From Bacteroidota bacterium (GTDB lineage Bacteria > Bacteroidota > Bacteroidia > NS11-12g > UBA955): 36,247 bases of DNA. This document shows, piece after piece, positions 13,505-13,834 of this stretch. The position numbers were made by a program, and so were the translations under genes. Under the pieces are notes generated by a model, which was not told the origin of the DNA, did not search any database, and was given only the letters and a program-made list of their open reading frames with translations. The DNA lies in contig JAURIG010000008.1 in the NCBI GenBank assembly GCA_030832905.1, positions 1 to 36,247 of the forward strand, given 5' to 3'. The first letter of the stretch is position 1. Each line of letters opens with the position of its first letter.

Positions 13505-13578
13505 GGTGTGGTAGTTCAGCTGGTTAGAATACTGCCCTGTCACGGCAGGGGTCGCGGGTTCGAGTCCCGTCCACACCG
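13505..13578 (+). tRNA. tRNA-Asp (anticodon GTC)
   Basis: GGTGTGG...CCACACC acceptor pairing, CTGCC-CTGTCAC-GGCAG anticodon arm (GTC), GCGGG-TTCGAGT-CCCGT T arm; discriminator G; CCA not encoded. Confidence 0.95.
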
Positions 13579-13613
13579 CAAAACAAAAACCCTAGTAACC
13601 CTAGGGTTTTTTT
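13565..13613 (+). repeat. Direct repeat copy 1 (tRNA-Asp 3' end + terminator)
   Basis: tcccgtccacaccgcaaaacaaaaaccctagtaaccctagggttttttt, identical to 13738-13786. Confidence 0.95.
13585..13613 (+). terminator. Rho-independent terminator of tRNA-Asp
   Basis: AAAAACCCTAG-TAACC-CTAGGGTTTTT, perfect 11-bp stem, then extra T residues. Confidence 0.85.
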
Positions 13614-13737
13614 CATTTAAAAAAACCGCACCAAGTTTCTGCTTGAGTAAGGTGTTTAAATGAAAAAATAGCCATGACAATGGCGTTGGGTTTTTGTTTT
13701 AAAGCCCAAACCAAGGGTCCATTACATCGTTTAATAA

Positions 13738-13786
13738 TCCCGTCCACACCGCAAAACAAAAACCCTAGTAACCCTAGGGTTTTTTT
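13738..13786 (+). repeat. Direct repeat copy 2 (orphan tRNA-Asp 3' end + terminator)
   Basis: 49 bp identical to 13565-13613, offset 173 bp; not preceded by a tRNA body. Confidence 0.95.
13758..13786 (+). terminator. Second, duplicated copy of the tRNA-Asp terminator
   Basis: Same AAAAACCCTAG-TAACC-CTAGGGTTTTT hairpin as copy 1. Confidence 0.75.
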
Positions 13787-13834
13787 ATTTAATAAACCGC
13801 ACAAAGCTTCTGCTGAATACAAATATTGAGTTGT

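Follow-up and report, generated by a model that had tools for sequence, protein, structure and literature searches.

We propose that the repeat behind the tRNA-Asp gene in the 36,247-nucleotide stretch of Bacteroidota DNA analysed here (the window) is an ORF-less, partly decayed or truncated tandem unit of a kind of GIY-YIG homing element that targets tRNA genes and regenerates the tRNA that it enters, and we regard this reading as probable. It draws on the organisation of the units, the match between each unit and its tRNA, the association with GIY-YIG ORFs, the isotype specificity of those ORFs and one pair of empty and filled sites, as these appear on sequence comparison.

The duplicated tRNA-Asp end

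The window belongs to a Bacteroidota MAG of 1.95 Mb (85% complete), and its named relatives are for the most part freshwater MAGs. An intact tRNA-Asp(GTC) lies at 13505-13578/9, and the segment 13565-13613 recurs identically over 49 bp at 13738-13786, which is 173 bp further on, start to start. The bases flanking the two copies differ on both sides (G/A on the left, C/A on the right), and beyond the identical core ~30 bp of weaker similarity (80%) follow; when the tail copies are aligned, 59 nt match at 93% and another, shifted stretch of 35 nt matches at 80%. This perfect repeat with an imperfect continuation is what the initial annotation had described, coordinates included. It had also noted that the second tail copy has no tRNA body, and we likewise found no second tRNA body in the window. 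The gene-proximal copy of the duplicated tRNA-Asp end is intact, the end of the host gene is present twice, and one type of terminator is common to both tail copies. That first reading had missed an inverted copy of the trailer (13/13 bp), the other hairpins and a GGG...CCC copy of the T-arm at 13715-13741. The features are listed here with their coordinates in the window.

13505..13578, + strand: intact tRNA-Asp (GTC) (ARAGORN; Rfam RF00005, 67 bits)
13565..13737, + strand: unit 1, 173 bp by the repeat spacing, starting at the last T-loop base of the tRNA and ending right before the second tail copy
13565..13613, + strand: first copy of the 49-bp repeat, with T-arm 3' strand, acceptor 3' strand, trailer and terminator (sequence comparison)
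13580..13592, + strand: tRNA trailer arm of the closing stem, AAAACAAAAACCC, exact complement of 13688-13700 and paired in the DNA fold
13586..13611, + strand: H1, intrinsic terminator hairpin with T run (fold; inverted repeat)
13608..13668, + strand: H2, hairpin with 14-bp perfect arms (13608-13621 and 13655-13668) and an inner hairpin (inverted repeat; folds)
13671..13684, + strand: H3, small hairpin (folds)
13688..13700, + strand: inverted trailer copy, GGGTTTTTGTTTT, which closes the three-hairpin structure (complementarity; DNA fold)
13715..13741, + strand: T-arm copy with a hairpin in its loop, GGG-TCC-hairpin-AAT-CCC (equivalents in G004, G005, G012, G078 and G112)
13738..13786, + strand: second copy of the 49-bp repeat, with which unit 2 opens (sequence comparison)
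13787..13815, + strand: remnant of unit 2, the 5' arm of H2 at ~80% match, with the truncation point of unit 2 (shifted repeat alignment)

Unit 1 runs through the tRNA tail, the terminator, H2, H3, the inverted trailer, a short C-rich linker and the T-arm copy, which leads straight into the second tail copy; unit 2 stops after ~78 bp. There is no ORF in the 124-bp insert (13614-13737) between the repeats, nor any integrase gene or remnant, and a search of the window for a GIY-YIG endonuclease gene or a credible remnant of one found none. The repeat is unlikely to stem from an error in the MAG assembly, given the divergence between the copies and the independent versions seen in relatives.

Comparable units in the same genome and in congeners

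Eighteen tRNAs were found in the genome of the window, and comparable units follow those for Lys, Met, Arg-TCT and Ser-GCT (three in tandem), with a more degenerate unit after Ser-TGA. Each is built from the sequence of its own tRNA, and several are tandem. We carried out a census of 142 tRNAs from 8 genomes, in which a copy of the tRNA's own tail was sought up to 500 nt downstream and mismatched tRNAs served as the control. Own-tail copies of at least 10 nt were present at 14 of the 142 tRNAs, against 3 of 2,840 mismatched comparisons, and tail duplication of the window's type is therefore commoner than chance. Complements of the trailer, that is, inverted copies, of at least 11 nt occurred at 17/142 tRNAs and in 11/2,840 mismatched comparisons. 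A simple DNA pattern for the Asp-type T-arm copy matched 7 places in 5 of 17 congeners, a pattern that is too specific for a census because the sequence of a unit follows that of its tRNA. Units are absent at most tRNAs and variable among congeners, several of which have none at tRNA-Asp, and the number of units differs between species.

Other repeats and altered tRNA copies were seen in these genomes. Another family of post-tRNA repeats lies at tRNA-fMet, Arg-CCT and Glu of the window's genome, G000 (L064, L066 and L072), and consists of a AATGACAGAG...CTCTGTCATT stem with a long variable loop followed by a GGAGGAC..TCTCCTCC hairpin. At ~960-1060 of G002:C4 (L048), a degenerate tRNA-Asp copy with inserted hairpins is found just upstream of an intact tRNA-Asp. 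The palindrome TCCCGATAGCTATCGGGA occurs inside the dispersed repeat CTTCGACAGGCTCAGCATGAC at ~1100-1500 of L221 and also interrupts tRNA-Asn tails in L248, and in L231, L242 and L156 displaced tRNA copies carry a different GC-rich hairpin in place of the anticodon arm, the T-arm or the acceptor.

An empty and a filled site

The initial annotation had proposed a search of the tRNA-Asp loci of relatives for an empty site, an integrative element or a tandem tRNA-Asp array, and the loci that we compared include an empty site (in G039) and an integrative element (in G009); the same-genus loci that carry tail units showed no second tRNA body. The element of the congener G009 (G009:C51, L045, 1067-15250) is ~14 kb long, has a tyrosine-recombinase-like ORF first and sits at the same tRNA-Asp. 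The empty site of G039 can be set against a filled one in G050, of the same genus: the flanks of tRNA-Asp align at 84% and 92%, and G050 carries a 363-bp insert with a 23-bp overlap, or duplication, in the tRNA tail. The distal tail of G050 retains the terminator seen in G039. Judged from the two sequences, this pair is an insertion with regeneration of the tRNA 3' end, in which the distal copy is the displaced native end. In the window, by contrast, both tail copies have one terminator, and a displaced native tail that would prove insertion is thus missing; no empty site with exactly the window's flanks was found, and the downstream neighbours of tRNA-Asp vary among congeners.

GIY-YIG ORFs at tRNA genes of relatives

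A GIY-YIG ORF flanked by a tRNA and a duplicated tail was found at tRNA-Arg and tRNA-Gly in G024, at tRNA-Val in G004 and G034, at tRNA-Asp in G050, G034 and G078, at tRNA-Asn in G012, at tRNA-Ser in G112 and at tRNA-Lys in G105. The isotypes that have an endonuclease ORF between end copies in relatives are Asp, Asn, Val, Arg, Gly, Met, Ser and Lys. The GIY-YIG domain is clear in these small ORFs (Pfam E ~1e-13 to 1e-16), and the start codon often comes immediately after the tRNA terminator.

The loci that we fetched, mostly as best-scoring matches per genome among nearby genomes, the order and the phylum, contained 74 small GIY-YIG ORFs. In 27 of the 74 a tRNA on the same strand precedes the ORF at a distance of 1-353 nt, and behind most of these ORFs a portion of that tRNA's 3' part recurs exactly; for 43 no tRNA was detected nearby. 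By a rough estimate, chance alone would account for well under 1%, and no tRNA is contained in any of 11 loci of long (UvrC-sized or polymerase-sized) GIY-YIG proteins. Best cross-genome protein matches agreed in tRNA isotype 19 times out of 28; shuffled labels gave a mean of 3.25, and 0/2,000 shuffles reached as high a value.

ORF-bearing units also occur in arrays (G127, G063 and G041), and 5'-side versions occur at tRNA-Cys and tRNA-Arg. The array of G127:C34 (L305) has ~eight GIY-YIG ORFs at ~365-bp spacing, those that we read being parted by hairpin-bearing tRNA tail copies, with no intact tRNA in the 4.8-kb stretch. In G024:C3 (L240) and G042:C23 (L308), a GIY-YIG ORF is flanked on one side by a 5' tRNA fragment with a hairpin and on the other by an intact tRNA-Cys or tRNA-Arg. 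One small GIY-YIG ORF is present in the genome of the window itself (G000:C34, L226), at a contig end where an upstream tRNA, if any, is cut off. A tRNA-Met-type GIY-YIG protein used as a query matched no phage record.

Two sets of units connect those that have an ORF with those that do not. The tRNA-fMet unit of G004, in the window's genus, combines a GIY-YIG gene with the T-loop hairpin GGGTCCGCC..GGCGGACTCCC, and the same hairpin form is present without the gene in two tandem fMet units of G005; the Asp units of G004, G005 and the window have the form of these fMet units and are gene-less. In G024, one double hairpin is common to an ORF-bearing Arg unit and to ORF-less tandem Pro units. The simplest reading of these shared hairpins is that units without an ORF derive from, or travel as passengers of, the ORF-bearing kind, and the window unit may likewise descend from an ORF-bearing one. 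Trailer inversion and the three-hairpin structure are not general among ORF-bearing units, and within the genus trailer inversion is combined with a downstream GIY-YIG ORF only in the Arg-ACG/Phe/Val-GAC family.

Alternative explanations

Alternating direct and inverted copies could also be made without a mobile enzyme, by replication or repair slippage in which fold-back and tandem duplication act on the tRNA 3' end and terminator and the GIY-YIG genes are unrelated passengers of a hot spot. The region behind the tail indeed repeats the tail region in inverted orientation (alignment score 29, against a maximum of 22 in 500 mononucleotide shuffles), which gives the unit a direct/inverted/direct look, and both the single terminator type of the window copies and the varying number of units across species would fit. 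We nevertheless consider slippage unlikely, as it predicts neither endonuclease lineages specific to a tRNA isotype, nor the clean 363-bp insertion with tail regeneration of G039/G050, nor the T-loop hairpins that displaced copies contain both with and without an ORF.

Selection on a structured regulatory RNA or trailer element, whose closing stem and hairpins are needed by a read-through tRNA transcript as a terminator back-up or for control of tRNA processing, seems to us improbable. The unit folds strongly: in the DNA fold the trailer stem encloses three hairpins (z -4.5), and as RNA local hairpins prevail over the closing stem (z -6.0). The pairing of trailer and inverted trailer is also kept while the sequence changes, for the closing stems of tRNA-Asp vary by species yet remain complementary (AAAACAAAAACCC, CAAATGAAAA, CAAATAAAAA and AACCAAAATTAAAAAAG), as do the unlike stems of different tRNAs. 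Against a function of this kind, the unit sits behind an intrinsic terminator, is missing at most tRNAs and, in several congeners, is lacking at the very same tRNA. In an Rfam scan of the window only tRNA passes the gathering score, with no match to RtT or another known structured RNA, and a known RNA family was rejected on this basis.

Three origins had been offered in the initial annotation, and a minimal non-autonomous element comes closest to the homing element that we favour. A residual attL/attR pair left by a lost tyrosine-recombinase element is very improbable, even though the same tRNA-Asp holds such an element in G009: the core there is a 21-bp repeat, TTCGAGTCCCGTCCACACCGC, with different terminators on its two sides, whereas the window repeat is not confined to the tRNA 3' end, includes the terminator and runs on for ~30 bp, and comparable units, also tandem, lie at ~five tRNAs of the genome. 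A collapsed or decayed tandem tRNA was rejected, as a second tRNA body is missing both from the window and from those tRNA-Asp loci of the genus that bear tail units, where only such units are seen.

Comparison with known systems

The 178-bp repeats of E. coli tyrT (RtT RNA) are tandem repeats 3' of a tRNA that each reproduce the tRNA 3' end; to our knowledge they have no link to an endonuclease. They resemble the window in their position and composition and differ in that the window has no Rfam match to them. Tyrosine-recombinase elements at tRNA 3' ends, such as that of G009, likewise target and restore the 3' part of a tRNA, but they have an integrase, large cargo and, in G009, a 21-bp core without a terminator, whereas the window has no integrase and another repeat pattern.

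The T-even phage enzyme SegB is a GIY-YIG homing endonuclease of the phage tRNA region that cuts within tRNA genes, with a reported motif of RAWTSGAAC (PMC13096335). By our own reading, this motif is the reverse complement of GTTCSAWTY in the tRNA T-loop, and the enzyme type, the tRNA-gene target and the T-loop motif are thus points of likeness. SegB is, however, a free-standing phage gene, and we saw no element that carries or regenerates a tRNA end described for it (PMC13096335).

Mobile ORFs of fungal mitochondria replace the 3' ends of genes, as in Allomyces macrogynus atp6 and in Glomus atp6, atp9, cox2 and nad3; the endonuclease ORF (LAGLIDADG, or GIY-YIG in atp9) brings along a copied 3' end for its host gene, which remains functional, and the original 3' end is left further downstream as a second copy (PMC3630166). 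An endonuclease ORF, a replacement gene end and a displaced native end are features in common with the tRNA units. The mitochondrial hosts are protein-coding genes, whereas the units described here use bacterial tRNA genes, have enzymes of 80-100 aa and are set apart by hairpins in the displaced copy, tandem arrays and ORF-less units. We found no earlier description of such a bacterial family in the literature that we searched, most subscription journals being outside it.

Proposed mechanism and implications

For the homing elements that we propose, we infer mobility, cleavage, homing and protection of the displaced copy by its hairpin along the following lines. The element starts inside the tRNA, mostly in the T-arm, and brings a tRNA 3' end and a terminator of its own, so that insertion would leave a working tRNA; its far end is a second copy of the same tRNA segment, in which a hairpin usually intervenes. 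Units of the autonomous kind encode an 80-100 aa GIY-YIG endonuclease, with each lineage dedicated to one tRNA isotype, and this enzyme would act near the T-loop, cutting the tRNA gene of genomes that lack the element. Repair off the element-bearing copy would then insert the unit, and the hairpin would shield the displaced tRNA copy. Tandem arrays could arise by repeated insertion or by unequal recombination between tails, and gene-less units, the window's included, would survive as passive passengers or fossils. Isotype specificity and the SegB motif point only indirectly to cutting of the element-free allele by the encoded enzyme. An argument against homing is that the enzyme should still be able to cut the regenerated tRNA, except where its recognition site reaches into the trailer.

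We give an even chance to the broader proposition that Bacteroidota harbour widespread, intron-less selfish elements dedicated to tRNA genes, with isotype-specific GIY-YIG enzymes. Such elements would insert in the T-arm, the anticodon arm or the 5' side (tRNA-Cys, tRNA-Arg), regenerate the tRNA end and disarm the displaced copy with a hairpin; they would form arrays (as in G127) and leave ORF-less palindromic units like that of the window, perhaps spread in trans or via hairpin-ended intermediates. If this is true, bacterial tRNA genes host homing elements of their own, which are free of introns and supply a replacement gene end, a form of homing hitherto described, as far as we found, for mitochondrial protein genes. 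The prediction is that one enzyme cuts the gene of one tRNA isotype near the T-loop. Many of the orphan tRNA tails, pseudo-tRNAs with hairpins and stand-alone GIY-YIG genes of Bacteroidota would also find an explanation in such a family.
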